Shown one piece after another: positions 26,561 to 50,166 of a stretch of 64,000 nucleotides of DNA. The number at the start of each line of letters is the position of its first letter. Position 1 is the first letter of the stretch. The DNA is from Rhodosporidiobolus odoratus (lineage: Eukaryota; Basidiomycota; Microbotryomycetes; Sporidiobolales; Sporidiobolaceae): the NCBI GenBank assembly GCA_034387635.1, contig JAOANU010000019.1, positions 248,001 to 312,000 on the forward strand, written 5' to 3'. The translations under genes were made by a program, and so were the position numbers. The notes under the pieces were generated by a model that saw only the letters and a program-made list of their open reading frames with translations, did no database searches and was not told the origin of the DNA.

Positions 26561-28976
26561 ATGACTGACTCCCAGCTTACCGCCACCGTGACACCCCTTA
26601 CCCTGTCCTCCATCGCCTGTTCAACCTCTTCCCTTTTTCCCGCTTCAGCCGTCCTCCGCGGTCTCGTTGTCTCCGTACGACCTTTCTCGCACCATACCAA
26701 ACTCGGACACGTTGTACTCAGCCCAGCGAGCTCCGACGAAGATCAGTCTACCCGCCTTGAGATTGAAATGAAAGGATGGTGGGCTGAGAAAGCGAGTGCC
26801 AGGTTCAGGCAGGGGGAGGTCGTCATACTCCGAGCCGCCGGCGGAAAGTTGCTAGATGGCAGCTCCAAGGGAAAAGAGAAAGAGGGGAGCGCAGGGCGGA
26901 AGAGGTTGCGCTTCGAGAAGGGCTTGCAAGGCTGGGTATTGAGAAAAGGCGGACAGCAGGAATTGCTTCGGTACAAGGGTCAGTTGCTCGATTAGGATTT
27001 CCCCCTCAGAGTCTACTGATCCTTGCAACGTCTTCAGCTACCGACCCGCGTCCTTTCAGCTCCGCTATGCCGCCAGCGGCGCCAATCGTTCCCTCCAGGA
27101 AACCTGCCGGTAAACCTCCTGGGAAACTTGTGGTACAGCCCACTCTGGCCACAGCCACTACATCTGCCGTGCCTCCAGCACCGCCGCCGACGATTGCCCA
27201 CGTTCAGCCAGAAAAAACCGCTCTCTCTACCAAACGACCTCGACGGTCTACTCCTCCGCTTCCACCTGAGCCACGCGAAGAAACGCCTTCCGCCGCCAAG
27301 ACTAGCGCTCCAGGAGAAGGGTTTCGCTCGAGGAAGCGCAGAAGGAAGGAAGAGCAGCTTGGGTGGGGTCTGTCAACCGTGCGTTTCTTGCCCTTTGCGC
27401 CCATCCCACTGTTCGGCTTTATTAACGAGCTGACTTTTCATGCAGAGCGCCGGTACCTTCTACACCGCCTTTTCCGACTTGCCGGGAGTGCTGGCTGCCT
27501 CTGCACGAAGCGGCCCGACCGCGAAAAAGCTGGTCAATATCTTGGCCCTCGTGAGTGACCCCGGCGAAGCTTGCGCACCGAGAAAGCCAGATGGAGGTGT
27601 GTTTCGCGTTTGTATCTTTCTTTCCAACGTACTGACAATCTCTTTGAGTCGAAGATTGGTACCGCCGCCTCACCCTCACATGTCCTTCTCGCCCTACATC
27701 CCCTGTCGAGGTTCAGTGGTACGCCAAAACAGCCGAGGCGCTACCGCAGATAAGCTACGGAGACCTACTTCTCGCAGAAGGCTTAATTGTAAGCTTCCAA
27801 CCTTCTTCCTCTTTCTTACCGCCTTCGTTGCCGAGTTTCTTCCTGTCTGACAACCTCGTCTTCGCAGCTCAGAGGCTCGTCCCTCTCGCCTACCCTTATG
27901 GCAGGCTCCTACGACCCCGTCCCCCACGCCGTCCTCTCCCCCTCCCATCTTTTCGCTCCCTCCGGCCCAACACAACATCCCACTCCTGCTCCACCTGCCC
28001 CAGATCGCCCTCCGACGATTCCACTGCACGAGTGGAGGAGGACTTTGATGCTCAGCCCGATTGGGGTTGGACTCGATGAGGAGGAACTTGCACATGCGGT
28101 AAGGGTGGCGAGGTACTTTCGTCGAGAATCGGTTGATGCTACTGCGGGGGCAACGGTTTCACCCGATACCTATTCAACGAAAGCGTCGGCGACAGCGGAT
28201 CAGTACGAGGTGAAGCAGACTGATATGGCGTCGAGGGCGGTCACACCAGCGACAGCCGCTTTCAAGGGTAGTCGACCCTTGGTGCGGATTTCGGAGCTCG
28301 AGGAAGGGAAGTTTTGCGATGTGGTCGGCATGGTGCGCTCCTCCCTTCCTCCATGGCTCTGACTTCTCCCCCGCATTGGTTCTCACTCGGCCTCGCCATG
28401 AATCGCCTCGACAGGTTACCAATCTCTCAGCCCACTCGCCCTTTCCCCTCTCCTCCCTCCCTTCAAACCACTCCGCCGATCTCTTCATCACAGACTACAC
28501 CTCCCACCCTCTCTTGAAACCCTACGATTCCCCAACTTCCACCAGTCCCGGCGTCGGACTCGCCGGTAAATTGACCCTGAGAATCTCCCTCTTTGGGTAT
28601 CAGGTCGAACCTTTGATTCCTTTTGTAAACCCACAAGGTACGGGGGGGATCAAGCGGGGTTTGATGGTACATCTGCGGAATCTGAGAGTTAAGAGAGATC
28701 AGGAGGGGGGGTGGTTGGAGGCTACGCTGGTGGAGGAGAGGGAGGAGAGGTGGAGGTGGAAGAGGGATTTGACGGTCTTGCAGAGCAGTAGAGAGGGCAA
28801 AGGGTTGGAGGAGAGCTGGAGGGTCGCGGCCAAGGGGGTGCAGGCGTGCGTCTTATTTCCTTTCGTTGTCTTTTCTCTTGCTCTGTCGCCTTGGCGCGGG
28901 CGTGTCCGTGCTGATTGCGTCTCTGTGTTGTCGCAGACGACATCGCGAGTATTGGGCGAAGCAGAGCCAGCAATGA
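26561..28976 (+). CDS. POT1-like telomere end-binding protein A, lacking the C-terminal domain
   Basis: Seven exons (26561-26978, 27038-27378, 27446-27596, 27655-27788, 27868-28332, 28415-28845, 28937-28976) encode 659 residues. The N-terminal 140 residues form a beta-rich OB-like region similar to that of POT1-like B. A disordered basic linker ends in RKRRRKEEQLGWGLST, and B has RKRRRERNAEIRTSWGLQT. The first POT1 OB fold follows (residues 254-350; NILALVSDP, DWYRRLTLTCPS, ISYGDLLL). The second OB fold has GKFCDVVGMV, ADLFITDYTSHPLL and LMVHLRNLRVK. POT1 proteins bind single-stranded telomeric DNA in the nucleus. Intron positions and phases match B through ARHREYWA, then a stop follows, so A ends where B continues with about 190 more residues. 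Exon 3 could end at an earlier GTGAGT (27551), but that breaks the frame. Start is the first in-frame ATG. Confidence 0.82.
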
Positions 28977-29428
28977 ACCTACCCCACCACGTTTGCCTCT
29001 GACGCTGAGGCTACCGGTCGAGTAAAACGGGTGAGGCAGGAGCCGGGGCAATCGCATGGTTACGTAGGGATCCGTAGCACTAGCGTCGTTCTCCTGCCAG
29101 CTTGCTTGCGCCTCGCTCGCAAAGGAAGAAGACGAGCAAGTCCGGTCGCAGCCCTGGTTTTCTTTTTCCTCCCTCTTACCACACTCCCCGTTTCTCGGCT
29201 ACCGCATCTAGTCGTAGCCTTTCTGTGCTCTCCATTGGCTCACTTGATAATCGTGGTCGTCGGTAGAAGGGCAAAGTCGATCCGGACTCCGACTTGGACA
29301 ATCTCAACTTTCATTTGTTGACCTCCTTTTTTTTTCTCCCTCTCTACTTTCTCTCCTCGCAGCCCCGCAAATCAGGTACTGGACCCCGAACGTAGATCTT
29401 ATAGGTCCACGACACCCATACGAGGTTC
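28977..29428. other. Intergenic region between POT1-like A and the long coiled-coil gene
   Basis: I looked here for a continuation of POT1-like A matching the extra C-terminal exons of B (motif FCP/YCPVC and later SCLDHG). Nothing similar was found, which supports a truly shorter A protein. T-rich pyrimidine tracts lie at about 29325-29355. Confidence 0.5.
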
Positions 29429-32400
29429 ATGACCAGCGCTCCGGTGGAAGAATCAAAGTGGACGAAGTGGTTCAGCAGGAATGGGCAGGGGGAGACGAAC
29501 GACTCGGAGGCAGCAAAGGGCGGTCTCGGGACAAGCGGTACGCCTGACGCTCAAGCAGCGGGCGGAATACGCGACGATAGGCAGCTCGCAGTGAAGAACG
29601 CAGGGGGCGAGACGAGGTCCGGAGGAGGATTGGCAGGAAGTGAAGGGAACGGAACACTCGGTACGCTCGATGCTTTCTGCCTGTCGGGAGTGACGGAGCT
29701 GAATATATTCATGCCCGCTGCAACAGGTCCGTCTCTTCGGCTGTGGGCGAACGGCGAGTCGACCGCTTTTTCACCGGCATCGAATGTCGGCGAGCTCCCT
29801 CCCGACCGCCTGGTCTATCCGCTCGTCTGGCAAGCTTGGCAAAGTACTCAAGATGCTCACCAGTCGCTGGAGCAAGGTATGCTCTTCTCGACCAATCGAA
29901 GCCTCCAACAGGGCTGACATCTTGTTTTGTTCGGCTTTGCAGGCTTCCGCGAGCCTCTCGGGGGTCTTCGCGCCCCTTCGCCGAAGCAATACTTCGCCAC
30001 AGACCTGTTCGGCCCAAGAACACAGCAGCACTGCCCACCTGCCTCCTCGGCTGCACCAGCTGTCCCTCGCGCCGACTTGAGCACATCGTCCGCTCGCCAC
30101 AACGACGGCCCTGCCTCCCCTCGAGCTACTCTCACCTCCCCTTCCCCGCTCTCTCTCAATCCGTCCGCCTCAGTGTTCACCCTCGGCGGCACGAAGCCTT
30201 TGACATCTCCGACTCCTTGCTGCACAAGTCCGCTCGACGCCTTCGGTCACACTGAAGGCTTCGATTGGTCCTCAGTAGCTCCTCCACCTCCATCTGACAT
30301 AAGCGCTCTTCCTTTCAACGGCAGCGTCTTCGGCGGCGACGATGAGCGGAGCCAGGCGCCTCTCGAGCCCTTGCAGTCGTTCTTCTCCCTGGTCGATCAC
30401 ACTCGTGCTGCTATCATCTCACCGCCCAGAACCAAGGCGAATAGTACGATTGACGCGGAGGGAAAGAGACCTGCGGATACGAGCGGGACTTTTGGCGGAC
30501 TTGACCCGGAGGAGAAGATCAGGTTGCAGGAGCAGCTCGCGAGCGGACGGGTGAGCAAGGCCATCGAGATCAAGAAGCCTACTCCGCAACCACGAGCTGC
30601 ACTCTTTGTGCCTACACTACTTCTGCCTACGCCCACGCTCACCCCCATCGGTTCCCCCACCAAGCCTCGTCTCTCCACTTCGACCTCTACCACCCCACCT
30701 TCTACCACCCCGCCCTCGGCCTACCATACGCCGGTCGACACTCCTCCCCTATCGAGTCCTTCTTCCCCTCCATCGCCTCTCTACGAAGCGACAAACGCGG
30801 AGGAGAAGAAGCCTTCCTTGTCCACCGATTCTGGTCCGCCCAGCTTCGACGTCCAGCCTGTACTCGACTCTCTCGCGTCTGCCTTTCCTTCCGCTGCCCT
30901 CGTATCCACATCTTCGAGCTCTGCCCCTCAGCATAATTCTGCGACCTGGTCTCCGCTGTCTGCCACGCCGTCCGCTTGGAGCGACCATTCGCTTCCTTTC
31001 TCGCCGCCTACCTCTCCACCTTCGATCAAAAGTGTTGAAGAGAGCCTGAATGACGGACTGCGGGCTGGAAGTCCCACTGGAGCGACGCACACCGCGCCGG
31101 TCGTGGCGGAAGAGGCGAAGACGGTGAGGCCGGCATCGCCAGCACCGTCGACGAGTGGGGCGAATCTCCCGTCCGCCCAGGGTCTCGCCGCTTCGAGTAA
31201 GGACTACAGACAGAGTGAAGAGGCTGACGGAGGCGAGGCTTCGAAGCAAGGAGCGGATCAGGAGCCTGCGGCGAAAAGGCTCCGAGTTGGGAAGGCCAAC
31301 GTTGCATCTTCGGTGCGTTTCTTCCCGAACTGCCTTTTAGCAATCTGACTAACACTGCTTCCAAAGGCTCCTTCTTCTCCGATCAAGAGCTTCCTCCACG
31401 CCGACTTTGGATCTTCACCTCCTTCCCCTGCCATTTCTCCTCGCGGTTCTTCGAGAACGAGTTTCTCGACCGCTTCTTCCAGTTCCGTCGGCGAGATCGT
31501 CCGCTCAGACGCCCTCGGCGCCTCAATCAATACGGTAGTTCCGTCCCCATCTTCCCTTGCCCGTCCACCTTTCGTCACTTTCAACTCCTTGCGCACTCAT
31601 GTCTCCCCCACCTCGAACTACGCAACCCAAGCCTACGGTCCCAGCCTGCCTCCGACCTACTTCCCCCCTCAGCAATCTCCCTTTCTTCCCGACCCCTTCA
31701 ACCCTTTCCAACCTTACCCACCTCAGCTCCCCCCAGGCGCCGACCCCCTAACCCTAAGCCGACTCCTCCAAGAAGCTCAAGCCAAAAACGGAGTCTTGCA
31801 GAATAAACTCGACAAGTACATCCGCAAGCATCAAGAGGATGGGAAGAAGATCGCGCAGCAAGCTGATGAGCTTGAGAGGCTTGTGGCGGAAGGTACGGGG
31901 GCGAAGAGGAGAATCAAGGAGGCGGGGGTGAGCCGTGGACGTGGAGTGGGAGGAGGATGGGGGACTAGTCGAGAGAAGGAGAGGGAGAGGGAAGCGGAAA
32001 GACGTGCTGAGAGTGCGGAAAGGGAGGTCCGAGAGCTGAAGAAGAAAGTTGAGGAGGAGAAGAGGGGGATGAGGGAGTGGGCGGGGCAGATGGAGAGGCA
32101 GAGGTTGACCGATGAGTTCGGTAGGAGGAAGGGAGAATTGGAGAGGATCGGGAGGGGCGAGGTGGGACGGTCGAGAGAGGTGAGCTTGCGTGCGGAGCTT
32201 GAGGAAGAGCGGGGCCAGAACGAGCGCTTGCGGAGGGAGCAGAGGCAGAGCGAGGGGAATGCGGCAGAGCTGGGGAGTGTCCGTGGTACGTGCCTTCGCT
32301 CAAGTGCGGTACGATCCGTCTCATGTTTACCGTTCTCGCAGCTGAGCTGGCTATCAAGAACGCCGATCTCAAGCAGCTTCAAACCCTGCACGCTGACGAT

Positions 32401-33472
32401 CAGAGACAGCTACAGCTCCTGCTTCAGAGCACTTTACAACCGGACGCAAACAGGGGAGAGCTTGAGATCAAGCTTGCCGCCGTAAAAAAGGAGCGAGGTG
32501 CGCTTTGCTACTCCGTCGCTCTGTCTTTATATCTGCGTTGATGCTGCTCTCACCATCAGACTACCACCTCAGCTTGAGAGGCGAAGCCGTCTCCGACGTC
32601 GTTCGCTTCGAAGATGCACTCTCCGACGCCACCGCCAACTCTCGTTCCCTTCTGCAAACCCTTGACCTCGTGATCTCGACCACCGACTCCTCATACAACC
32701 TAGCTCAACAAGTCCTCACTCGTGCCGACTACTGCGTCGAGAGGACCACACAAGCCTACACGGACTTCAAAGCTAGAGTCGTGCCGCTGCTTCGTCAGCA
32801 AGAAGAGCGGTGCACGACTCTTGAAGACGTTGAGGAGGAGAGAAAAAGGCTCCAAGGTGAGGCGGAGGCGAAAAGCGTGACGTTGGGGCGCTTGGAGAAG
32901 GAAAAGGCGGAGCTGGAGGGTTTGTTGAGCCAAAAAGTTCGGGGTGAAGGAGAGCTGAAAACTGCGAAGGAGAGAATGGATGTCGAGGTCGGAAGCCTGA
33001 AACAAGAGGTACGCATTCTCGTATTCGTTCAGTCTTCCGTGATATTCTCACTCATCAAGGACGTGGCTTTCAGCTGTCCAAACGCGAACAAGCCTACCTC
33101 ACGCTCGAGACCAACTTTCGCGAAACGGTCAAGAATCTCGACGCAGTGCTCAGAGAAGAGGACACCAGAGTCAGAGAGATCAAAGCTGTGCACGCTGAGG
33201 CGGAGGAGCTCAGAGCTGCCAACATCAGCTTTGGCCGTGAGGTGGAAGCGATCAGACGCGAGCTGGAGGAATCAAAAAAGAGTGCGTTTTCTTTCTCACA
33301 CCTGCCTTACCTCGGCGAGAACTCGCTTGTTTGTCTGCCTCTCTGACTGTCCTCCTGCGTGCGTAATGGCTGACACGCACTCTGCTGAACGTCCCTTACA
33401 GAGCCGAACAGCGGAGTCTCCCGCTTTCTCGCCGCATCGCCTTCGTCGACAAGATGTTCGCAGGCCGGCTAG
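29429..33472 (+). CDS. Long coiled-coil protein with a disordered N-terminal half
   Basis: Exons: 29429-29876, 29943-31312, 31367-32285, 32342-32497, 32560-33008, 33074-33281 and 33402-33472 (1206 residues). No family is recognised. Residues 1-600 are Ser/Pro/Thr-rich and probably disordered, with a nuclear-localisation-like patch AAKRLRVGK near residue 595. From about 700 to 1175 the protein is almost continuous coiled coil: LTLSRLLQEAQAKNGVLQNK, AERRAESAEREVRELKKKVE, then a globular-looking helical insert (LSLRGEAVSDVVRFEDALSD), and a final coil to ELEESKK. The last exon adds 23 residues. Such a layout suits a cytoskeletal, spindle-pole or nuclear-architecture scaffold, but that is inference. 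It sits in tandem with POT1-like A with a 452-bp gap. Confidence 0.72.
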
Positions 33473-33662
33473 AGGGGTGACGAGAATGGTTCTGCTTGTC
33501 GTACATCACTCCAGATCCTAGGAGACAGCGCTTGCAAGGTTTGTGCATGTTGTCCACATCCGGGTATACCGGCGCTTCCGAGCACCGAGGTATTTTGACC
33601 TTCGCAATTCGGCTTTGGACTGCTTCTTGTTCTGTTTCACCTCACTTTCTGCTCGAGTCACT

Positions 33663-35039
33663 ATGACGGCGCTATCTGCTGCTTCGATAGCGTTCTGTTC
33701 TGCTATGAAATCTAGTTTACCGGTGGTTCTGCCTCCCATGGCAGGGGTGGCGGGCGGTGGACTCGCTGCTGAGGTGTTCAAGGCGGGGGGAGTAGGGTTT
33801 ATTGGAGCGGTACGTTCCGTGTCCTTCTGTCGGTCCGTTCTTCAGTCCCTCACTCGCCGATCGATGCTTTGGCAGACACACCGTCCATTGGAAAACCTCA
33901 AGGAGGAAGTCGAGTCTGCGAGATCAATTCTAGGGCTCACGGCTACGGACGAGCTTCCGTACGTCCCCTGACTCTTTCATCTGTCATCCCCAATCTTACC
34001 GCGCTAGGTGTACACATTCTTCCAGCCTCGGCGCCGGCTTCATCGCCTGGCGTTGCGAACCTCCCTTTTCCTCGTCCGCCTCGCAAGGCCTCTCCTACGC
34101 GACGACTTGGCTACGCTACATGCTCTTCGAAGCTCGCTTCCGACATATCTGGCTATCCTTCAGCCATCGGGGCGTGGACGGACTGGAAGACTGGGTAAAG
34201 ACGGTGAGGGAGCTGGAGAGGGAAGGAGCGAAGGGTGAGGCGGAGAAGGAGAGGACGGAGAGAGCTAGGGTATATGTGATGATTCAGGATGAGGAGGCTG
34301 GGCGGAGGGCGAGAAGATGGGACGTTAATGCGGTGGTGGCGCAGGGTAAGCTCGGTTTTGCCCCACTTCTTCCCAGAGTCTTGCTATGCCCTTCAGGTCT
34401 CTTCTCTCGCGCGCGGTCCACACGCAACTGATCCGCTCCCGACTGCAGGGACAGAATCGGGCGGCCACGGTCCGACTCATCAAGCGGGTCAACCAGTCCT
34501 CTCCCTGATCAAATCCCTCGCTCCAGCTTTTCCTCCCGACGCCGTTCCCTTCCTCCTCGCCGCCGGCGGTATCGCTGGATCCGCCTCACTGCCTCCCGCC
34601 TTCTGCGCCGGTGCATCCGCCGTAGTGTGCGGCACCGTTCTCTCCGCGACTTCCGAATCGCTTCTACCACCAAAGCAGAAAGAGCTTCTCATTGCCGCGT
34701 CTCTAGACTCGAGCATCCGGAGTGGGTCGTGGGACATTGCTCGCGACGGGAAGAACCATTGGCCGGAAGGGGTAGATGGAAGGGCACTGAGGAATTCGGT
34801 ATTTGAGGAGGAAGGAAAGGTCGGAGCGAAAGAGGCGGCGGAACGGTACAAGCTGGCGGTGAAGGAGGGGGATGTTGAGAGGGTGGTTACTTGGGCAGGT
34901 GCGTCTGCGACCCTTCTACGACCGTCTGCACGGAGCTTTGTGAGCTGACTTTGCCTCTGCATCAGGGTCCGGTGTGGGCGAGATCAAGGCGGTGCGACCA
35001 GCGGGGGAAGTAGTGCGATCCCTCTTTGGCCCGTACTAG
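33663..35039 (+). CDS. Nitronate monooxygenase (2-nitropropane dioxygenase family)
   Basis: FMN enzyme that oxidatively denitrifies alkyl nitronates such as propionate 3-nitronate. Exons: 33663-33809, 33876-33958, 34026-34345, 34449-34898 and 34966-35039 (357 residues). The N-terminus has LPPMAGVAGGGLAAEVFKAG and VGFIGA, the FMN-binding barrel start of the family. Later blocks are LGAGFIAW, VVAQGTESGGHG (family GGHG motif with the catalytic-region histidine), PFLLAAGGIAGSASLPPAFC and GASAVVCGTVLSATSES (phosphate-binding end of the barrel). All frames close, and length is typical. It likely acts in the cytosol or in peroxisomes; no clear targeting signal is visible. Confidence 0.9.
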
Positions 35040-35432
35040 TGTTTGGATCAGCAGAGAGCCTGTAACGCCCGTCTTCGTCGCAGTCCTTCGGATTGTTTTT
35101 TTCTTGGCTTGAGGACGCGTCTCGACGCGCCTCGACAGTGGCACTCAACGGCTTTCTTTTCGCCACTCGCTCCCGCTCTCAGTGCCCAGGGTTCAGCTTA
35201 CTATATACAGCAGCAGGATCTGCCCTTTCACCTTTGTCAGCTAGACTATCGCCGGCGCCCACCGTCGCTGGGACCTCTCCCCAATTCACCCTCTCCTGGC
35301 CTCCCTTCCTTCGGTTCCTCGAACTCCCGCTTGAACGACTAGCACAACACTCTACGCACCGCCTGCGGCTGGCCCTCACACTCGTTAACTTTCGCCTATC
35401 CAGTTTACCCTAGTCCCTCGTTACTTTCCATC
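35040..35432. promoter_or_regulatory. Promoter region of the secreted beta-trefoil-like gene with a TATATA element
   Basis: The hexamer TATATA is at 35203-35208, 225 bp before the ATG. Pyrimidine-rich sequence leads to the start codon. This is the only clear TATA-like element I noticed near a start in the window, and it would fit a strongly or conditionally expressed secreted product. Confidence 0.45.
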
Positions 35433-36818
35433 ATGTTCGCCCGACTCCGCCTTGTCGCCCTCGCCGTCTTGGCACTTTCAGCACTCTCGACCGCTGTAGA
35501 CGCTAAGAAGACGGGCAAGGTGCTCACCACCAACCAGAAGCAGGCCGCACAGTTACAGGTAGGTCACCAGTTCAGGGTATCTTGGGACGAGGGCGGTGCG
35601 TGCGGTGAATGAATGGAACAAGGGCAGACGCAGAGAGCGAGTGTAGAGCGTGTATGGATCGCTGGGATAATATGGAGGTTGTGAGGGATCATGACTGCAC
35701 AAAACGACGGGGTATGCAGGCTGACGTCCTTTCTTTTTCCTGTTTCCTTTTTCCTTTTCCTTTTCTCCTTTTTCTTTTTCTTTTCTGCCCTCTGCCCTCT
35801 GCCCTCGCCATCTGTTTCTCCAGGCCGCTGCCGTCTTCCTCAAGCCTGGAAACTACAAGCTGCAAAATGTTCAGACCAAGCAAACGCTTTACTACGTGGT
35901 GCGTCAGGCGCTTTCCCCTTGGCAAATTCGGACTGTCGTACTGAAGCCTCTTTCAAACGCAGCCGAGTGGCAATCACATCTATCCGCAGAAGGGCAAGTA
36001 CACCAAAGCCGCCGTAACCGCCTACTCAAACAAGAAGGTCCCGTGGCATCGCCTCGGCTTCGGGTCAAAGCAGAAGTGCTTGTCATCAGCTTGGGGCAGC
36101 ACTGGCAATAACGCTGCCGTCATGTACGTCTGCGCGTCTGGTGCAGACTCGAAGAAGACCACGCTCGAGAAGGTGCGTCCGCTAGCGATCTCTCATTTCG
36201 CCCGCCCGAACTGACCCGTCCTGCTTGAACAGACGAAGCAATGGTGGCTCTTCGTTCCAGTCAGCAAGCCGACAGCAAGTGCTTCCAGTACCAGCTACGC
36301 CAACAACATCCTTCTCGGTGCGTCTTTTGAACCTTGCTTCGGTTGTCCCGCCGTTTGACGTCTTGCCTCTACAGCCGCTCAAGCCGACAGCATCTCGACC
36401 CGCGAGAAGAAGGCCGCCGCCCAAAAAGCCGCTTTCAACAAGCGAGACGGCCTGCACGGTCTCGAAGCTTTCCAGCACCAGCGCATGATGCGAACTGTTC
36501 GCAAGCGGGCGCTGGAACGCAGGGCCAACAAACACGCCAGCTCAGGAACCTACTACATCATCGCTATTGATCACCTTCTTGACCGCGCCGCTGCTCTCAC
36601 TGGTAAGCAGATCAAGACAAGGGGAATCAGGAACACGGTCATCTCCAACTGGAAGAAGGTGCGTCGCCATTTCTGCTGGACCTTATGATATGCTTTCTCC
36701 CTGGCCGCCCTCCTTCCCGTCTTTGTTCCTTTCCACCTCGTATACACACGCTGACCCCCGCTGCCTCTCGCCTCTGCAGGGTAACAAAGCGCAACAATGG
36801 AAGTTTACCCGTGCCTAA
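35433..36818 (+). CDS. Secreted protein with probable beta-trefoil (ricin-B-lectin-like) repeats
   Basis: Six exons (35433-35558, 35824-35898, 35963-36172, 36233-36317, 36375-36658, 36780-36818) encode 272 residues. A cleavable signal peptide is clear (LRLVALAVLALSALSTAVDA). The mature part repeats a pattern seen in beta-trefoil domains: GNYKLQNVQTKQTLYYV near 55, CLSSAWGSTGNNAAVMYVC, KQWWLFVPV, then GTYYIIAIDHLLDRAAAL and a final AQQWKFTRA, so QxW-like motifs close two of the repeats. Such folds often bind sugars, but no sugar site can be read here. A basic Lys/Arg-rich helix-like stretch (AAAQKAAFNKR, then VRKRALERRANK) splits the repeats, which is unusual. Function could be wall binding or adhesion; uncertain. 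Confidence 0.72.
35728..35805 (+). repeat. Polypyrimidine tract with CTGCCCT repeats inside the first intron of the beta-trefoil-like gene
   Basis: The 265-nt first intron (35559-35823) is longer than most in the window and carries about 75 nt of nearly pure T/C, ending in three CTGCCCT-type units before the acceptor. Confidence 0.7.
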
Positions 36819-38138
36819 ACCACCCCACTCCCGGACATGTCTCTATACTCCTTCTTCGCCCATAGTTACCCCCCTGCCTCGCACGATTGCCAGCCTCCTT
36901 CGCCTTGCCCTGAATTCGGATTCTCTTGTCGTCGTTTTTTTCTCACATTTCCTTCGTCCTTTTCGTTCTTCTTGCTGCCCGGTTCGCATGGCTCGACACC
37001 TGTCGCATCGTTTCCTTTATCTTTTGTATAGCCCTGTCATAGATCGCGCTAGTCGCATCGGCCTCGTGGCCTGGTTCTTTGGTATCGACCCTCGGTTGCA
37101 ATTGAGGGTTCACCATGTCGACGAAGAATTTGTCTTGGCACGAAAGCCAGATCTTTGCGGCGGCTGAGCAAGCGGAGGTGCTGGACCATGAAGCTGAGGA
37201 GGTGATGACCGAGCAGGATGAGGTGAGTGCGAAAGGGGAAGCGAGCATAGGCTTGTTTGAGGAAGTCCGGCAAGAAAGGCTCGAGGCTGTGTCGGGTCTG
37301 TACTGGCTAAGCAGCGAGAGGGGTAGGGGCACCAGCGATTGGCTGTTTGGCTGCTGAAACCGCGTGCAGCCATATTCGCACTGCAAGGAATCTTGCCTTG
37401 CTGGCGAAAGACGCCCGAGGAGAAAAAACGCAACAAAGGTTGCTAGTCGTTTCCGCCTATCAACCCCTTGTCGATTCTCAGGACGTCATCTCAGAGCCCT
37501 ATCGAAGCCTGCCTCGATCCTTCGCCTCCTACCTTGGACATCGTCATCCATCACTTTTCTCTGCGATCTTTTGAATCAGGTTGAGAAGGTCAACTCGATT
37601 ATTACCTCCCACCCTGCTAGCTTCCATGACAATCGGTAGAGATCATAGACCGTGGGCGGTGGAGCCGGAGAGACACAAGCGGAGATGTGACAATTTCGAT
37701 GTAGCCGAAGGCGAGAGAAGTCCCCTCATGACCAGCAAGGTCAGCGCTAGCAGGAGATGCCGGACGACTCTGAGGGCTTCAAGCTGAGGCTGCTAGCGCT
37801 AACAAAGATTATCCAAAACAAGGCAAGACCGCTCCAAGGCTTGAACACCCGTCTGGGGCAAAGAAGGAATACATTTCTCCTTCCTTGCTCCGGTTGCCCA
37901 CCCGTTTGATCGCAATGACTCGTCCTAGTCCTCGCAGCTACACGCAGCAGAGAGTGTACCGAGACCGAGCAATGCGGGACCGAAGAGACGGGCGGCAGGT
38001 CGATCAGCTTTGCGGCTCAGATTTGTTCCTGAGGTCAGGTTTTGGCAGTTTTTACCCAGTGACGATGAGGCGTACGCTGCTTAGAATATACTCCAGACAG
38101 TACTCGACAAAATGCCTAAGGTAAGGGAGAGAGTGCTA
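36819..38138. other. 1.3-kb region without a confident gene; weak candidate exon at 37115-37222
   Basis: This convergent stretch lies between the beta-trefoil-like gene and HEN1. An ATG at 37115 in good context (caccATG) opens an acidic frame (STKNLSWHESQIFAAAEQAE) that ends at a good 5' splice site (GTGAGT at 37223), but I could not find a convincing continuation. The minus-strand frames opposite it are no better. No tRNA or snRNA fold was recognised. Confidence 0.3.
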
Positions 38139-40418: not shown

Positions 40419-40830
40419 GACTGTGGATGCAGCGTGCTTGACGAAGTTGGAAGGGTCAACCTGCCTCGAGACAACTTGGGCTGTGCTGAACGAGTGATGA
40501 GCAAGGTCCGGGAGATGACCGGGTGACAGGACGGTGACAGGAGGGCGACAATGGATCTTTGACTAGTCCAGTCTAGGTGATGTATGCGTGCGAGGTGTGA
40601 GCGCGAGGCAACAACGAAGCGAAAATAAAAATGGAGGAAATTGACTTTTCTCTGCCGCTCGTCGACAGCGCTGACCAGTCACGCAACGAGCGACCATACT
40701 TCCGACGTATTCGACTGGGTTGTAACAGCTGGTCATCCCCGCCGCGCACGAGAATGTGACCTTGACCTCTTCCTCCTGACCCTGCCCCATAATCAGTCGT
40801 TTGCCTTTTTCCGCTCATTGACTTCCGGGC
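40419..40830. promoter_or_regulatory. Divergent promoter region between HEN1 and the TMEM19-like gene
   Basis: The 412 bp separate two divergent start codons. No recognisable binding site or extra exon was found. Confidence 0.4.
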
Positions 40831-42053
40831 ATGACTCGCTTGCACCTGCCATACTTGGCCCTATCAATCTCGGTGGCTGGCAAAGGCTACAAATCCGGAT
40901 CTCTCTCGTCAGCAGGCGCCGTTGCTGCTGCCACGGCCGGCTACGCTGCACTCGCCAACCCGCTGGGCGTGTTCGGAGTGTGTCTTCTCGCCTTCTACTT
41001 GGCAGGAAGCAGGGCTACAAAGGTATACTTCTCCGACTCTTCCCTCTAGCATCTTCCACGTCCCCACCGGAAGCGTAGCGTAGCGTACCGAAGCTGACGA
41101 GAGCTAGTGTTCAGGTCAAAGCCGCCGTCAAGGCCACCTACGAAGAGCAAGAACACGGACCGACCCCGACGTCAAATGCAGCCGCGTCCGCATCGTCGAA
41201 ACCGCCCAAAGTAGGCGGAAACCGCACGCCTGCGCAAGTCGCTTGCAACGCACTATTAGGCGTGGTCTGCGCGGTGGCTTGGCGAGTACTGTATGAGACA
41301 CGCTGGGAGGAGCAGAGATGGTGTGTTGTCGACAGTAGGGCTGGGGAGGAAGAATGGAGTAGGCCGCTCATCCTCGCGGCAGTCGCATTCTGGGGGGCAT
41401 GTTGCGGCGATACAGTCTGTTCATGTTTGCTCACCATGACTCAAGCCCCTCCGTGACTGACCCCGGTCATATTGTCAACTAGTTCGCGAGCGAGCTCGGC
41501 ATTCTCTCCCGCTCCCCTCCGTTCCTCCTCTCCACCTTTTCTCGCTCTCCTCGCGGCACAAACGGCGCCGTGTCCGCTTGGGGCACGCTCGTATCCCTTC
41601 TCGGCGGCGTGTACGTCGGCGTATTGGCGGTCGGCACGCTGGCGCTGCAGGGTCAGGCACGACAGTGTGGTGGATATGGCTGGGCGGTCGAGGTGCTGGC
41701 AGTTGGTGGGGCGGCGGGTTTCGGTGGTAGTCTGGTGAGTACTCTGTCCTCTCTGCTAGCACCAGCTTCTTAGCGCGTGCTCGCCCTGCCGCTCTGCACC
41801 AACTATACTGACACGCCTTACTTTTCCCGATGCACTGCAGCTCGACTCCCTCCTCGGTCTCCTCTTCCAGCCGACGTACTTCTCGCTCTCGCGCAAGCTC
41901 GTCGTGCACCACCCTCCAAGCGGCAAGAAAGACGACGACACCATCGTACTGCCAGGTACCGCTCTTTTCGGCGCCCTCCTCTCGAATAATGCTGTCAACT
42001 TTGTTAGCACGGGTGTAGTAGCGGGTTTAGCGGGGTGGTGGGCGCTGCTGTAG
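40831..42053 (+). CDS. TMEM19/DUF92 family integral membrane protein
   Basis: Four exons (40831-41022, 41115-41414, 41483-41734, 41841-42053) encode 318 residues. Several hydrophobic segments are visible, for example LPYLALSISVAGKGYKSGSL, ANPLGVFGVCLLAFYLAG, LILAAVAFWGACCGDT and YVGVLAVGTLAL. The family motifs GDTFASELG (spliced across an intron; usual form GDTWASELG) and GTNGAVSAWGTLVSLLGG are present, as is the C-terminal NNAVNFVSTGVVAGLAGW. Bacterial and plant relatives include phytyl-phosphate kinases, while the fungal and animal members have no settled function. Confidence 0.9.
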
Positions 42054-42192
42054 ATAGGTACGTTGTATAGAAAGTCGAGTTGAATGAAAAGCAACACACG
42101 CCGGTTTATCGGCGTCCGCAATAGCCGCGTGTTGTTTCAGCTTCTCCCTCGTCGTACCGCTGGCTTCGCTCTGCTACACCGCGCTATTCAAG

Positions 42193-43781
42193 ATGTCGGA
42201 CGTTACGTTCCCTCGCAACGCTTCTCCCGCGCAAGTGACTGTCTCGCGTCCACTGGGCGACGAAGGAGGAGTTTGGGTGCTGTCGATGAACGGACAACAT
42301 ACCAACGATAACAGGCTGACACCCGTACATCTCTCCGCCTGCTTTGTTCCTACCGCTCACGCTCACTCGCTTGCTCATGCAGCCTTTCATCCGCGATGCG
42401 GTCCGTTCTCCCCTGCTCCCCCACTTTCATCAGTGCTACGGCCAAGAGACCTAACGAGACCGTGAAACAACGCAGATGCTCCCCGCATTGGACTACGTCG
42501 AGCTGGAGTGGCACCGCGCTTGTGAGAGGGGGAACAAGAAAGGCGCTTTGGTGTTGACGGGGGAGAGAGAGGTGGGAAAGTTCTTTAGGTGCGTATCGCT
42601 TCCCTCTTTCGTTACACTCTTTTCATCGTGACCGGAAGGCTTCAGCGCACACCTCGGACGCGGCGAGGAGGTTTAGGGGTGGCCGCTTTGAGCATCATCT
42701 TTCTGACCTTTTCTTCTCTTCTTCCTCTGGCGTCGTTCGTCCCTCTACTCGAACCATGGACGCGTCGCAGTAACGGCCTGCAACTCGAATGCATGAAGGA
42801 GTATCCAACCTTCTTCAAGGTAAGCACCTATTCTCTGGCTCGCTATTGCCTCGAAGCCACCCACTCACGCCTCTGTTCTCCTTTTTGCACCTACACACGC
42901 TGATCTTCTCTAGGACTACTACTACGTCCTACTCAGCCGCCTTCTCAGCTTCCCGCTACATACCATTGCTGCTGTCAATGGGCACTGCTTCGCGGGTGGG
43001 CTGTGCTTGGCGCTGGCTTGCGATTGGAGGATTTGCAGGGTACGTCTGGCTCTTCTTCTCCCGCTGCTGCCTGAAGAAAGCCTGACATACACTTTCTTGT
43101 GCAGCCCGACCGTACTTGGCTCTGCATGAACGAACTCGCTTTCGGTAGGCTCTCTCTTCCCATTGAGGTCTCTATCTCCTTGTAGGCGCTGAATCAACCT
43201 CGTAACACTCGCAGGCGCCCCACTACCCGACGGGATGTACGCCGTCCTCGCCGCTCGCCTCTCCTCGCCCGCGATTCGCAAAGTCATGCTTACCGCTCAC
43301 CGGTATACGGCGGATGAGGCGCTGAAGGAGGGGATCGTTGACGAGATTGTCAAGGAGAAAGGGAGTGGGAAGTGTGTCGAAAGGGCGGTGGAAAGGGCGA
43401 GGGAGTTGAGCGGGCTGGCGGAGACTAGGGTGTGTTCTATGCTTCGCTTTTCCCGACTCTCTCTTTTCCGTACTTTCCTGTTTCTCAAGAGGACATCGGT
43501 CTTGCCAACGTCATTCCGTCGACTAGCATGAACGCGAGCTGGATCGTTCACCGCTAACAACCTGCGAACCCGCTTCGATTTTTTTTCCTCCGCCAACCTC
43601 TTCTCCCGACCTGCAGATCCTAACCTCGATGAAGCAGACCCTCTATGCTCCCGCGCTCGGGATTCTCCAGTACGACGAGCGTGCGAAACCGGATGAACAC
43701 AAGCGGGACTTGGAAAAGCGGTTTGAGGAGTTGAAGAAGAGCGAAGAGGAGGCGGAGGCGAAGGCGAGGGCGAAGCTTTGA
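42193..43781 (+). CDS. Enoyl-CoA hydratase/isomerase family protein with a PTS1 (AKL) peroxisomal signal
   Basis: Eight exons: 42193-42324, 42383-42400, 42476-42588, 42771-42819, 42914-43039, 43105-43144, 43215-43429 and 43617-43781 (285 residues). Crotonase-fold blocks are visible: VWVLSMNGQHTNDNRLTP, FFSNGLQLE, HTIAAVNGHCFAGGLCLALA (oxyanion-hole segment), and CDWRICRPD with the following LAFGAPLPDGM. Delta3,delta2-enoyl-CoA isomerases of fungi share this length and layout. The protein ends KARAKL, and AKL is a functional variant of the SKL peroxisomal signal, so a role in peroxisomal fatty-acid oxidation is likely. Exon 2 is only 18 nt. The gene starts 139 bp after the TMEM19-like stop. 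Confidence 0.88.
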
Positions 43782-44144
43782 GGAGGATCTGCGGCGCTTG
43801 TCAGGCAGGGGAGTATGTAGAGGTGTACCTAGCGCTTGTGTGTTTGCCGTCGGCGGTCGATCTAGTCGAGGTTCGCTCGAGCAGAGCGGGCAGAAAGCAG
43901 AGAGCGGAGAAGCGATCGGAGGACGATCTGGCAAGGCGAGGTGGTTGGTGCATAGGTTATGGATTGTTGCTGAATGAGTAGCTAGCTCTTGTAGCTGCCT
44001 GTAGAAGCACACACTGAATGAAGATGAAGGAGGAGGATCTAAAGGAGGTCCAATTGATGAAACTTGAAACATCTCTCAACTTCGCTGTTTCTTCACTCAG
44101 TCCATACGGACTACAAGCGAGTCACAGATCACTAAGGGGACACC
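43782..44144. other. Intergenic region holding an upstream ORF that overlaps the next start codon
   Basis: An ATG at 44057 opens a 33-codon frame ending at 44158, past the main ATG at 44145 and in another frame. If transcribed, it would limit translation of the downstream gene. Otherwise the stretch holds the promoter. Confidence 0.4.
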
Positions 44145-46099
44145 ATGAATCCCCCTGATCACAGACCGACACGTTCCAGGCCTCTCACCGCTCACTTCGC
44201 TACTTCAACCTCCGCACCTTCCCCTTCAAACACTCCACTCAGCCCTCACAGACCAACACAAACCCCAAAGCCAGTACAATTACCTCGCTACGGCTCACAG
44301 CAACTGGCATTTGCCGCTCCGCTCTCGATCGAACCCTTTCGAGGTCAGCCTCATCGTGTAGTGCCGACCCCGTCACTCGACTTGTCGGCAAACCTCAAAC
44401 CCCTGCAACCTCAACAGGCCGCCGAGAAACCCCTTTTAGGCGCACGGGAACCGTCCCGTGGCACGCTGGAAGAGCCCCCAGCCGACCAAGGTGGCGACCG
44501 CATTGCGGCCTTTCCGCTGCGGAATGCTCAAAAGGGCGCTGAGGAAAAGTTGGCCAAGCGGCCTAGGATGAAGGGAAAGCGGGCATCGGTAGACGAGAGA
44601 GAAGAAACGGCGGGGCTGGCAAAGCGGCAGTATCCGTATGCCGAGGGTTGTGCGTCCTCGTGTTTTTGCTCTTCAGTTCTTTTCGGTGTTTGACCGTGTT
44701 CTCCTCTTTCAGACCCTTCATGCAGTAATGTCGGTAACGGTGTACTTTCGTGCTTTCCCGAGACCAACACGACCTTGACTCAGGGCGAGTACTCAAAGTG
44801 AGCACACCTTCCCTCTAAAAGGCTTCGATTTGCTCACCCACTGTTGTTTGCAGATTCATCTGGAACTCCCGCTTTCCGACTTTTATTGGCGCCGGTGCCG
44901 TTGATGTCTACTTGTACAACGCCGACACGGACGACGTGGCCGCCACCTGGCGAAATCGCACGAATGCCAACGGCATGCTGTCGATTCTACCTGAAGACCA
45001 GTGGTGGGCATCCCCGACACAGTCAACCGACGACTGGTTTGGTGATGCTGCCCGAAATCGAACAACACCCTACTACTTTGTAGTCGTGGATGGAGGAACG
45101 AACCTTAGCGGAGGAGAGGAGCATCAGGCAACTTTCGACGTCGTTCGTGCGTTGTCCTCTCCTGTTCTGAGCCATGCTCCAGCTCACCTCATTCTTGTTT
45201 ATGCAGAAACGGCCGCCCCCACATCGCTCTCTTCTGCACTCGCCGCCCTCACCTCTTCCTCCATGTCTTCCCTTTCCTCAGCTTCGGCGGCGTCATCCGC
45301 ATCTCTCGCTTCAGCTTCGGCCTCAGCTTCCTCTCTCTCCTCACTCCGCTCCGCTTCTTCCGCCAGATCGCTGTCCGACGCATCGGCGTCTGGCTCTGCC
45401 ACATCCCGTGGTGGTCGAAACTCTGGCGGCGACCTACAGAACAATTCTTCCTCCGGCCCGGCCATCCCGAAATGGGCCATCGCCCTCATCGTCATCTTTG
45501 GTGTTCTCGCCCTCGTCGCAGGAGGATTCGCCGTTTACTTCTGCCTTGGTCGGGCAAGGAAACGCCGCCAAGCCGATGAAGCAGCCCGACGAGCGCAAGA
45601 TATGGACGACGACGACCTTACGAATGGCTCGCGTGACCCTATCCTGGGTGCACGAGGGAGTGTCTCTGGATCGCCTGCTCACTCAGCTGTCGCTGCGGGT
45701 GCTGCTGGAGCAGGTGCTGGTGCCCTCGCAGCCGGAGTTGCTGGGAAGGAGGGAGAGAAGCGCGAGGACGACAGTACCCTCTCGCACACCGACGCTGCCA
45801 AGATGGCGGCTGCCTTCCGAGCCGCTCTACGCAAGCCAGAGTTCCCGACAGGCGGAAGCTCACCGGATGAATCGTCTGGGGAACCGGGGTTGCCGCCTCC
45901 CGTGTTGGCGGGTGCGGGTGCGGCAGGGCCTGGTGCGGGACCTTCGCCGACGGGGGCGAGGAGCGGGGATTTGTCAGAAGGGAGTGGGGAGAGGGATGCG
46001 GCGGGGAGGGCGTTGGTCGAGGATGAGCTTAGGAGTGAGGGGAGGAGTATGAAGAGCGTTGTGGGTGGGGGGAAGCGATGGGGTCCTTCAGCGGTGTGA
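44145..46099 (+). CDS. Single-pass membrane protein with a cysteine-containing beta-rich ectodomain, a Ser/Ala stalk and a possible Kex2 site
   Basis: Exons: 44145-44649, 44713-44797, 44854-45146 and 45207-46099 (591 residues). Residues 1-150 are Pro/Ser-rich. A dibasic GLAKR precedes QYPYAEG at about 160, the form cut by the Golgi protease Kex2. A compact domain follows (CSNVGNGVLSCFPETNTTLT, FIWNSRFPTFIGAGAVDVYL, DQWWASPTQSTDDWF, YYFVVVDGGTNLS) of a kind common in basidiomycete surface proteins. A Ser/Ala-rich stalk, likely O-glycosylated, leads to one TM (WAIALIVIFGVLALVAGGFA) and a 150-residue cytoplasmic tail. No signal peptide is visible although the topology demands secretion, and an in-frame TAA lies just before the ATG. 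Either the TM acts as signal anchor or an upstream exon was missed. A sensor or wall-linked receptor role is inference. Confidence 0.75.
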
Positions 46100-46827
46100 G
46101 CTCGCTCAACATCATTTATCTCGACACTGGCACTCGTCGTCCTCGAATCTTCCGCCTTCTTCACCTGCACGGTCGCACTTTCCCCTCCGACTTGCATCTC
46201 AACCGCCTCTTCAAAAGGTACTCCCTTCGACTTTCTGTGATTGTTCATCCCTTTCTCTTTTCTTGTCAGTCTTCGCGTCGGTCATCGCCTCCTGTCGTCG
46301 GTCCTTCCCGCCTCCGGATCGATCGCGTGTTTCACTCCGCGTTCACTCCATGTTATCGCACCTTTCTCGCCTTCAACCTCGGTTCATCCTTCCCTCGTTG
46401 TCCTTCGCCCGCTCTCTCGCAAGTACACAGACACTATTTCCCTCCGCTTTCCCCTCACGACGGAAGGAGGTAATCTTTGCTTCTGTCTTTCGCTCTTCCG
46501 TTTTTTTCATCGTCCTGTCGTTGTTCTCTCTTTCACCCGCTCTCTCTTTCCTCCCTTTTCACGGACGTGTCTTACGGTATTTACAGGCCTCTCGGGAAAC
46601 GTCTTTATGCGCGAAGGCAGCGGTTTGGGTGAGCACGCGAGAGCTTGAAAGAAACGAGTGAAACTAGTGAAGGACGCCCGGCGCATCAAGCAGGACAGCG
46701 AGAGCTAGGCATCCGGTAATGGCTCGAAGGAAAAGCGATCCTGCGTATCACGCGTTGGTGCGCGTGGTTTGTTGCTTATTTTCGTCCACTGCACTTCCCC
46801 GTACGACCTCTTCCGCCAGCCAGGACT
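46100..46827. other. Intergenic region upstream of POT1-like B
   Basis: This pyrimidine-rich 728-bp region presumably holds the 3' UTR of the membrane-protein gene and the POT1-like B promoter. The open frames across it are low-complexity shadows. No gene was recognised. Confidence 0.4.
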
Positions 46828-49800
46828 ATGTCTGGCACTAATCCGCATGCTACTCTCAGCCACATGATCGCCCTTGCCGCCCTCAGGCCCGATTCGACAC
46901 TCCCACCGCTGGGAACGGTCGAGGGCCAAGTCGTCTCCCTCTCGCCATACAACGCAAGTTCCAAGCTCTTCACGTTCACCTTGAGCTCAGCACACCCGAA
47001 AGACACCGGTCTACGCGTTCAGATCCAGCTCAAGGGTGCTGAGTGGGCGAGAAAGGCGTCGCAGCTCTTCGAATCCAAACTTGGTCAGACTGTCGTTCTC
47101 TCCGGGGCGGAAGGGCAGCTGCAGCGGCGGCCGATACCGAAGGAGAGAGAGGGCATGGTGCCAGACGCGCAGAGGCTGAGGATTGTGTTCGATCGGCGCA
47201 TCGAGGGAGCTTGGAGGGACGAGAATGGAAAACAAGCTGGGCCATTCAAGTTCGGTGCGTTGAATCCTTTCATCGCACCTCGTGAACCAGGCCTAACGTG
47301 TTTACGCTGCAGGCGTTGCGACAAAACGGAAGAGAAGCTCCGGCTTCGCCATTCCTGCTTCTTCCTCCTCTCCTTCCCTCGCCACGGCACAACACAGCTT
47401 CCCCGTCTCCTCTTATTCGAAAGTCGTTCACACTCCCAGTCTACCTTCTGCCAGCGCTTCTTCGGCTCACTCCCTGCCGACTCCCGCCTCTCTTGCGCGA
47501 ATCGAAGTTCCTCGAGCCAACCCTGCCAACCCTTACGTCGCCGCGTCCGACAATACCGCCAATAGCGCTGCACGACATGCTATCGACAGCGATCCCTTCG
47601 ACTCGCAGCCGGTCTCGCGCCGAGTCAGCCTCTTGGGTCAAACAGCCGGCGCGGCGCCTGAGCCTGCAAAGCTGGAGAAGGACAAGGTGACGGATACTGC
47701 GGCGCAGAATGATGAGGCATCTGTACACGAGGATAGACCGAGGAAAAGGCGGAGAGAGCGAAATGCAGAGATCAGAACGAGTTGGGGATTACAGACTGTG
47801 CGTTGTGATTTTCTGCCTACGCGCTCAACTGCCAACCCCGTGAACTCGCATGATCATGTGTACTGACCTGAGGCTGTCTCTTCCCGCTTTCTGCCCATCC
47901 CGCTGTGCGCACCTCGTCTCGCCCTGCGCAATTACCTCGCGGGTATGCACCCATGTTATCTCTTAGACGGACCGCTCCTACCTCGCTCTCGACTCATTGC
48001 CGGCGAAGAATGCCCGAGATATACACGTCATTGCGCTTGCGATCGTCACTAGGCCGCCTGAAATGGCCAACGGAGGCGGAAGAGGTGCGTTCCTTCTTCT
48101 CGTTCTCTCGCACCATCCCCCTGTAGGGCAGTCTAGTTCAACGTGACCAGTGCTGTTTCGGCCAGACTGGACGACAAGCCTTCGTATCTTCGATCCAAGC
48201 CTGCCGACGGGTGGCGCCACAGTCAACTACTTCGCCGATACCGAAGGTGAATTGCCACGTCCGCAAGATGGCGACCTCGTCGTCCTGCAGCAACTTAACG
48301 TGCGTATCCTGGGCTACCCAGCTGCTCTGGCCCTCACAGACTATTTTTCATTTGCAGTGGACCAAGGACAGGCAATGGTTCGTCGCTTACAAAGGCAAGG
48401 GCAACTTCTGCATTCTTCCCTCTGCCAAGCTTCTTTCGCCTTCCCTTTCTTCTGTCCCTCCACCACCGAAACGGGCCGCGATCATCGGCGACGACGAATT
48501 CGCCTACGCTCGCGATCTGGCGCGATGGGCAGAAAAGCATGACTTGCTCGCCCACGCCGCTGAAAGTGCGGGAGTCGCCGTTGCAAAGGAGGAGGAGAGC
48601 GCAAACGAGAGGTCGGCGCAAGCTGCGAGACGGAGAAGTATGGGACGAAGGTGTCTGCGGGTCGAGGAGATATCGCCCGGCGAGTTCTGCGATTCGATAG
48701 CCGAGGTGCGCATCGCTTTCTCGTTTCGCCTGCCCGACCCGGGATGTGGTTGACCATTTGCGCCTGTGCACACGTCCTGGTTTGACCTTGCCGGTAACCC
48801 GATGTTTTCGCCTTGGTCGTGCGTTGCTCTTCTAGGTGGTCAAGTTCTATAACCCCTACTCGGTGAACCCGGAGCAGTGTCTTGGTCCGAACGACCAGTG
48901 CATGCTTTTCGTCACCGACTACACCACAAACCCTCTTATCGCGGACAACGGCAACGTTGGCGACCTCACGGTGGCCGGCCAACGCGCCTTGCGCATCGCG
49001 GTTTTCGGTAAACAGAATGAACCGCTCCTCGCCGTCCCGGAGGAGAAGCTTCGAGGTAGGATCGTCAGACTGCGCAACATTCGACCAAAGGTCGACTCGC
49101 GCGATGAGCTCGAGGCGACCATGGTTGAAGATTCTCGGTATCCTGAGAACCGCGACATCGTTCTCGTGGGAAAGATGGCCAGTCTGCCGGCGGACTGGCT
49201 GCAGAGCTTCAGAGCGTGCGTGTCCGGCCTGCATCCCCTCAATCTTCATCGTTGTATACTGACCCTTGTCATTCTAGACGCCGGAACGCATATTGGGCGG
49301 CTCCATCTTCGGACCGTCTGGCTCCCATTTTCGAGCCAAACACGAAGGACATCAAGCCCTTGAACCCGCTTTGTAAGTGCAGTCTGCCTCTCGCGTCAGC
49401 GCTTTCATAGCCATGCTCATGCTGGACTCCGCTGCAGCTGAAATCATCAAGCTCGACGCCTCTTCCTCTCCTCAATCCCTGACCGACGCCCTCGCCCTCG
49501 GCTCGCCTGGCATATATCACTTTCGCGTTCAGGTCATCGACTTCAACCCCCCCAAGCTGGAGGACTGGTTCAAGGCCTACTGTCCAGTCTGCGACGATGA
49601 GTGCGTCGTTTCTTCTGCTTCATCTGCTTTTCTGGCCCGTCTTGACAAAGTTTTCCGCCAGCCTTCCTGCGTGCGTCACCAGCTGCCTCGATCATGGTGA
49701 GGTCGCGTACGAGTGGTTCTTCCAGCTTGCGCTCGCCGGAGAAGGAGAAGTCGAAGAAGAGCGGGTTCTCCTGACCGTTTCGGGGTCGGAAGCGGTGCGT

Positions 49801-50166
49801 TCTCTCCTGCGTCCCGTTCTCAGCCAGACTGTTTGTCTCCGAGCTGCGCAACAGTCTCTGGCTCAGCAGCCTACCCGGCTTCCGAAATATCGTTCGACCC
49901 TGACTTCCTCTTCTTTCCAGTTTTCCCTTTTCCCCGGCTTCACCGCCGAGCACTTCGCCATCGTCCGAGCTGGCGACCTTTCCCCTCTCGTCACTTGCTT
50001 GCGTGGCATACTCGGCGACCTCGACTCGAAGAAACGGCGGAAGCAGCAGCTTCTCGAGGGCGAGGCAGGACCGGCTTGGGATGTATTGCTTGAAGCATAC
50101 CGAGATGGCGAAGACGCGAGTCGGCTGTACTGGAGGTTTGCGGAGGGAAAGGTGGCGTTCCACTAG
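46828..50166 (+). CDS. POT1: POT1-like telomere end-binding protein B, full length with Cys-rich C-terminal domain
   Basis: Ten exons: 46828-47254, 47313-47797, 47967-48084, 48166-48299, 48358-48705, 48836-49215, 49278-49372, 49438-49600, 49662-49794 and 49921-50166 (842 residues). It starts with an OB-like region (1-140) and a disordered basic linker. OB1 at 305-430 has DIHVIALAIVTRPP, DWTTSLRIFDPS and RPQDGDLVVLQQLN, typical of POT1 DNA-binding folds. OB2 at about 490-650 has GEFCDSIAEVVKFYNPYS, MLFVTDYTTNPLI and GRIVRLRNIRPK. The C-terminal domain (663-842) begins FRVQVIDFNPPKLEDWF and carries cysteines at 711, 714, 721 and 725, a pattern fitting the zinc-containing last OB fold of POT1/TEBP-alpha proteins, which in other species contacts the TPP1 partner. 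POT1 caps the telomeric single strand in the nucleus. Eight of nine introns begin GTGCG. Confidence 0.88.

Follow-up and report, generated by a model that had tools for sequence, protein, structure and literature searches.

In a 64,000-nucleotide stretch of the Rhodosporidiobolus odoratus genome (assembly GCA_034387635.1, contig JAOANU010000019.1, positions 248,001 to 312,000 of the forward strand), we analyzed two genes related to the telomere end-binding protein POT1, which we call gene A and gene B. This stretch, referred to below as the window, is on contig C19 of a 24.8 Mb genome in 45 contigs. The two genes, their exons and their oligonucleotide/oligosaccharide-binding (OB) folds are located as follows, in window coordinates.

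26561..28976, plus strand: gene A, a POT1 paralog without OB3, 7 exons, 659 amino acids
26561-26978, 27038-27378, 27446-27596, 27655-27788, 27868-28332, 28415-28845, 28937-28976, plus strand: exons of gene A
26582..26978, plus strand: OB-N of gene A, residues 8-140, placed by alignment to B, model strands and fold matches
27364..28146, plus strand: OB1 of gene A, residues about 249-441, across introns
28273..28967, plus strand: OB2 of gene A, residues about 484-657, across introns
46828..50166, plus strand: gene B, a four-OB Pot1, 10 exons, 842 amino acids
46828-47254, 47313-47797, 47967-48084, 48166-48299, 48358-48705, 48836-49215, 49278-49372, 49438-49600, 49662-49794, 49921-50166, plus strand: exons of gene B
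46849..47254, plus strand: OB-N of gene B, residues 8-143, placed by alignment
47783..48528, plus strand: OB1 of gene B, residues about 300-445, Pfam POT1 at 34.1 bits
48646..49305, plus strand: OB2 of gene B, residues about 485-640, Pfam POT1PC at 37.8 bits
49318..50163, plus strand: OB3 of gene B, residues about 645-842, with no counterpart in A

Both reading frames are open after splicing, and all of the introns (6 in gene A and 9 in gene B) are GT-AG. An independently annotated R. odoratus protein (P0001) has the same length as our gene A model and is 96% identical to it over the full length. OB2 of gene A scores above the curated cut-off of Pfam POT1PC, and its OB1 reaches 15.3 bits with Pfam POT1, below the cut-off of 29. 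When an A-type fold model was used for a structure search, POT1/TEBP structures were at the top of the list and the best match was to POT1 DNA-binding domains. At the N-terminus, the fold model of P0001 has the strands of OB-N at residues 31-139, Teb1 and MCM10 OB folds match residues 6-133 of the A-type model, and the RPA70 rows span residues 11-437. A preliminary description of this DNA had placed two POT1-like genes at these positions, and the spliced frames, the introns and the POT1PC match in each gene bear this out. By profile and fold searches, gene A falls inside the POT1/TEBP family as proposed there, although its OB1 does not reach the Pfam cut-off.

Judged by its sequence, gene B is an ordinary basidiomycete Pot1 with four OB folds (OB-N, OB1, OB2, OB3). 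Its OB1 and OB2 are both above the Pfam cut-offs (34.1 versus 29 bits for OB1), OB-N, OB1 and OB2 follow each other in order, and the fold model of a B-type protein (P0012) agrees with this arrangement. Basidiomycete Pot1 has been described as having an OB-N (PMC9119445; papers given here by PMC number are cited for excerpts). OB3 of gene B has the Tpz1-binding fold with zinc-type residues in the motif CxxC...Cxx(H/C). The R. nylandii protein P0007 covers 100% of gene B at 46% identity.

The intron phases are 1,0,1,0,0,2 in A and 1,0,1,0,0,2,1,2,0 in B, so all six introns of A have the same phases as the first six of B; five of them align exactly with their counterparts in B and the sixth is shifted by one column. 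The two proteins match in blastp with an E-value of 7e-12 with composition correction, and without it they align over 694 columns at 27% identity. Based on the shared intron phases and columns and on the blastp match, we consider descent of A and B from one ancestral gene to be firm, and the common introns reported in the preliminary description hold up, apart from that shift of one column. Two genome loci are matched by POT1PC, and these are A and B; our genome searches scored the best candidates only, exon by exon, and a very divergent extra copy could escape them. A search of the genome with A gave 9 matches, 8 of which were A or B, and we took the weak ninth match on contig C4 (E 0.38) as chance.

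The domain order had also been described as identical in the two genes. This is true for OB-N, OB1 and OB2, but the full sets differ, with OB3 present in B alone. Gene A stops directly after OB2. We found no OB3 match near gene A using tblastn with three OB3 sequences, and when OB3 of gene B was searched against the whole genome, all four matches were inside gene B and none were at A.

A-type proteins are found in at least 10 named species, seven of Rhodosporidiobolus (odoratus, microsporus, azoricus, ruineniae, poonsookiae, lusitaniae and nylandii) and three of Rhodotorula (graminis, araucariae and babjevae). These proteins have 597-660 residues and all terminate close to the same tryptophan of OB2, no more than about 12 residues away. 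Our searches also gave B-type proteins of 820-860 residues, from R. nylandii, R. pacifica and two Sporobolomyces. The searches were word-based and limited in reach, and the absence of a type from a species cannot be concluded from them. With whole A and whole B the best 7993 and 7991 candidates were scored, and B gave one protein; we suspect that the candidate lists were filled through the low-complexity linker. A further search with residues 474-640 of P0004 scored 2029 candidates and gave 13 proteins.

Compared with their R. nylandii counterparts, A and B of the window show 56% and 48% identity, respectively. By domain, the identities for A and B are 60% and 54% in OB-N, 54% and 53% in OB1, and 69% and 49% in OB2, where the value for B rests on 134 columns owing to a gap in P0007. 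We noted that the final part of OB2 in P0007 is about 22 residues shorter than in B of the window, probably because of an annotation error (a missed exon or wrong splice). Species of the same genus in the Sporidiobolales have an average amino-acid identity of 65-88% (PMC12093110), as reported for this order. Both genes are below this range; they change fast, and A is not the faster. The loss of its last domain and the divergence of OB1 are what might be seen in a decaying or non-expressed duplicate, but we find that explanation of gene A barely credible given its open frame, an exon structure equal to the first part of B, the full-length match to P0001, and the occurrence of the shortened form in 10 species of two genera, with conservation at least that of B.

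In a tree of 16 proteins (11 A and 5 B, 551 columns, Sporidiobolales only, midpoint root), the branch between A and B has a support of 100/100. The rows for A of the window and for the R. odoratus A are nearly identical in the tree alignment. Five of the 13 inner branches are open in the mixture-model tree, and monophyly of the Rhodosporidiobolus A proteins is not rejected by the approximately unbiased (AU) test (p-AU 0.406). In our first tree (Q.pfam+F+I+G4), the B clade was beside R. ruineniae within A with a support of 25.7/25, which we took as unresolved. Rhodotorula and Rhodosporidiobolus are separate monophyletic genera in a published species tree; within Rhodotorula, graminis, babjevae and araucariae share one clade, whereas pacifica belongs to the other (PMC12093110). 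Given the separation of A from B, the presence of A in both genera and this species tree, the duplication dates back to the separation of Rhodotorula and Rhodosporidiobolus or earlier. The old duplication of one POT1 gene put forward in the preliminary description is thus supported by shared introns, end-to-end homology, the tree and the distribution over two genera. An origin of the pair within Rhodosporidiobolus, with an artefactual grouping with Rhodotorula A, would fit the several open inner forks and the fact that a clade of A plus the Rhodosporidiobolus B proteins is not rejected (p-AU 0.455). We nevertheless regard it as very improbable, as the Rhodotorula A proteins join Rhodosporidiobolus A against all five B proteins at 100/100 and end at the same place after OB2.

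The two DNA-binding folds have not changed alike between the types. Comparing 11 A rows with 5 B-type proteins, we found that 43 OB1 columns are invariant in B, of which 8 have the same residue in all A, 17 are mixed, and 18 have a residue that never occurs in A. For OB2 the corresponding counts are 22, 12 and 4 of 38 columns (Fisher's test of same versus never, OB1 versus OB2, mixed columns excluded, p 1.9e-4, a guide only because columns are not independent). Around the fourth and fifth strands of OB1, none of the 9 columns invariant in B is the same in A, two are mixed, and seven never have the B residue. Looking from the other side, there are 37 OB1 columns in which at least 10 of the 11 A rows agree; 12 of these have the same residue throughout B, and 17 have a letter never found in B, one of them at a gap of B. 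Among the 62 A-conserved columns of OB2, 25 have an identical residue in every B and 11 have one that is absent from B. Our reading of these columns is that OB2 has been kept in A and that OB1 has been remodelled, with another face that is common to the A-type proteins.

We also tried to map DNA contacts from S. pombe, where Asp269, His305, Gly306 and Asp307 of OB2 are contact residues (PMC9333443). Aligned by eye, neither A nor B has residues like the first three, there is an acidic residue in both at the place of Asp307, and this mapping was set aside.

The main rival to the role we favor below is that A is a second, Tpz1-free binder of the telomeric G-strand that covers the overhang, competing there with B or with telomerase in the manner of nematode POT-2/POT-3, and we consider this a real possibility, if short of an even chance. 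Consistent with it are the 22 B-invariant OB2 columns that are identical in all 11 A rows, the POT1 DNA-binding domains as best fold match, the C. elegans protein POT-3, which with a single OB fold binds the terminal G-strand repeat and whose loss lengthens telomeres (PMC9881156), and the PDB titles for hPOT1V2, in which an OB1-OB2 form of human POT1 is on telomeric DNA. However, most of the OB1 stretch that is invariant in B is replaced in A (the seven of nine columns above), and in U. maydis binding is by OB1 and OB2 together (PMC9119445). A rather unlikely alternative is that A has left the telomere and binds single-stranded DNA or RNA with a new target. The absence of OB3 and an OB1 that is recast yet conserved (17 of 37 A-conserved letters never in B) would agree with this, but OB2 still matches POT1PC above its cut-off, and its A-conserved columns are more often the same in all B than never found there.

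The POT1 pair is not the only duplication in the window. The following neighboring genes were modeled.

16646..18959, plus strand: gene C, with a coiled-coil-like stretch, model of 710 amino acids, 3' part provisional
50452..52318, minus strand: gene C', a paralog of C lying tail to tail with B, model of 564 amino acids, 3' end provisional
53836-53012, minus strand: gene D, next to C', model of 248 amino acids with a coiled-coil-like stretch

C and C' are 49% identical over 256 residues (E 8e-47) and have three introns of equal phase in common at matching places; by eye, there is a fourth common intron near the 3' end. When 138 residues of C were searched against the genome, C and C' were the only matches. 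We compared all 1,039 open stretches in the window of 40 amino acids or more with one another at E 1e-3. Of the 11 pairs obtained, three are from A/B, six are from C/C' (antisense frames counted), and two are short and weak (E 8e-4 and 1.5e-4). Gene C is 7.6 kb upstream of A. Because two unrelated gene pairs are found within the same 36 kb, the arrangement suggests a block duplication followed by a local inversion. The block probably comprised at least POT1 and gene C, and its duplication probably preceded the separation of Rhodotorula and Rhodosporidiobolus. Two separate local duplications, one for A/B and one for C/C', are possible instead, since the order C (plus) to A (plus) is not collinear with B (plus) and C' (minus). 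Gene D has a faint resemblance to C' (E 0.06). Gene C had no PDB sequence match at an E-value of 1, and 20 long open stretches of the window had no Pfam family at E 0.01; these stretches are unspliced, so the neighbors may still be known genes.

Elsewhere in the genome, the TERT RNA-binding domain has three matches on contig C18 (377767-378300, minus strand), two of them above the cut-off, so telomeres are likely maintained by telomerase. TTAGGG is the repeat reported for R. pacifica and R. taiwanensis. Three consecutive TTAGGG units had no match in a genome search that skips simple repeats, and of 40 contig ends inspected over 600 bases each (20 of the 45 contigs), none had a telomeric array and 2 had a lone hexamer. 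The first 200 bases of contig C11 consist almost entirely of C and A, including a long A run, and are probably low-complexity assembly sequence. Six-frame genome searches with Pfam OB1 (PF02765) and Stn1 (PF10451) gave no match and are uninformative, as the controls were not matched either. With TPP1 (PF10341) there was one match below the cut-off (16.6 bits, E 0.08) on contig C14 (326370-326522, minus strand), which is a possible lead to a Tpz1 gene but which we do not claim as TPP1.

What A lacks and what it keeps can be compared with Pot1 proteins of known function. The C-terminal part of fission yeast Pot1 has been crystallized with Tpz1 (PDB 7cui), and the C-terminal portion of human POT1, which includes the third OB fold, binds TPP1 (PMC5394241). 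In U. maydis, tight binding of the G-strand is by OB1-OB2 only; Rad51 is bound by OB-N and by OB1-OB2, better by the joint fragment and hardly by OB3; and stimulation of strand exchange requires both the N-terminus and OB12 (PMC9119445). The layout of A is that of the Rad51-binding OB-N, OB1 and OB2 fragment of Ustilago, which is why we favor an A that is free of Tpz1, handles single strands through OB2 and may act on recombination proteins. In full, the reading would be that the POT1 and gene C block duplicated before the two genera parted, that copy B remained a four-OB protein whose OB3 is of the Tpz1/TPP1-binding kind, and that copy A came to end after OB2 with OB1 remodelled and OB2 conserved. 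Without OB3, A would have no docking to Tpz1 and could not be recruited to telomeres through this contact. It would most likely bind single-stranded DNA mainly through OB2 and most likely keep the protein contacts of its three folds, which in Ustilago bind Rad51. The roles of the ancestral POT1 would then be divided, with capping left to B and shelterin-independent recombination or G-strand handling to A. Taken whole, block duplication, capping by B and a shelterin-independent A, we give this reading somewhat better than even chances. Some functional split between A and B is likely given the loss of OB3 and the remodelled OB1, and a split at telomeres, raised in the preliminary description, is a possibility. 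A stronger version, in which A is a POT1 outside shelterin that two genera have kept as just the Rad51- and DNA-contacting part, with OB1 re-specified, is tentative and on balance unlikely; if true, it would be a natural separation of the repair regulation of POT1 from capping.

Several observations weigh against the favored reading. Both types were seen only in the window genome and in R. nylandii; the word-based searches recovered no B for the other six Rhodosporidiobolus and the three Rhodotorula species with A, and only B for R. pacifica and the two Sporobolomyces. The gene order is not collinear, and the AU test tolerates A together with the Rhodosporidiobolus B proteins. With its low OB1 score, A may be unable to bind telomeric DNA. 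As for Rad51, the link is taken from a distant species and from a protein that has OB3, the U. maydis Pot1 (PMC9119445).

POT1 duplication itself is known; what is new is a duplicated POT1 of which one copy has been kept without the shelterin-docking domain. Unlike A, mouse POT1a and POT1b both retain the C-terminal TPP1-binding part. We take the human hPOT1V2 of the PDB to be a splice form of POT1 without the C-terminus. According to the PDB titles it is, like A, an OB1-OB2 form without OB3, whereas A has a gene of its own, carries OB-N in addition, and has been kept in two genera. The mouse pair is also a duplicated POT1 with divided roles (PMC8448735), but its duplication is recent, with 75% similarity (PMC9881156). 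C. elegans POT-1, POT-2 and POT-3 are likewise domain-reduced and specialized relatives of POT1 (PMC9881156), with one OB fold each compared to three in A. Arabidopsis has more than one POT1 as well, with POT1a associating with telomerase (PMC4199523), but these are plant proteins and we noticed no domain loss like that of A in the excerpt. U. maydis Pot1 resembles gene B in its domain order and in the zinc-type cysteine positions of OB3, and A has the first three of its four domains; the excerpts of PMC9119445 treat a single Pot1 and mention no paralog without OB3. Our searches of open-licence literature showed no published account of the A/B pair in the titles and abstract starts listed, and the shelterin passages of PMC11185503 and PMC7952879 name no such pair. 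The R. graminis A-type protein is already labelled 'Protection of telome...' in the database.

POT1 is one essential protein that caps chromosome ends, controls telomerase and, in Ustilago, also regulates Rad51, and these roles are hard to separate. A conserved second POT1 gene without the shelterin-docking domain is a natural experiment in this respect, and it may be dispensable for growth. Large-scale genetics exists in the same order, for Rhodotorula toruloides (PMC5922974). With this pair, the POT1 paralogs known from mouse, plants and nematodes would gain a fungal case, and A could reveal what the first three domains of POT1 do without TPP1.
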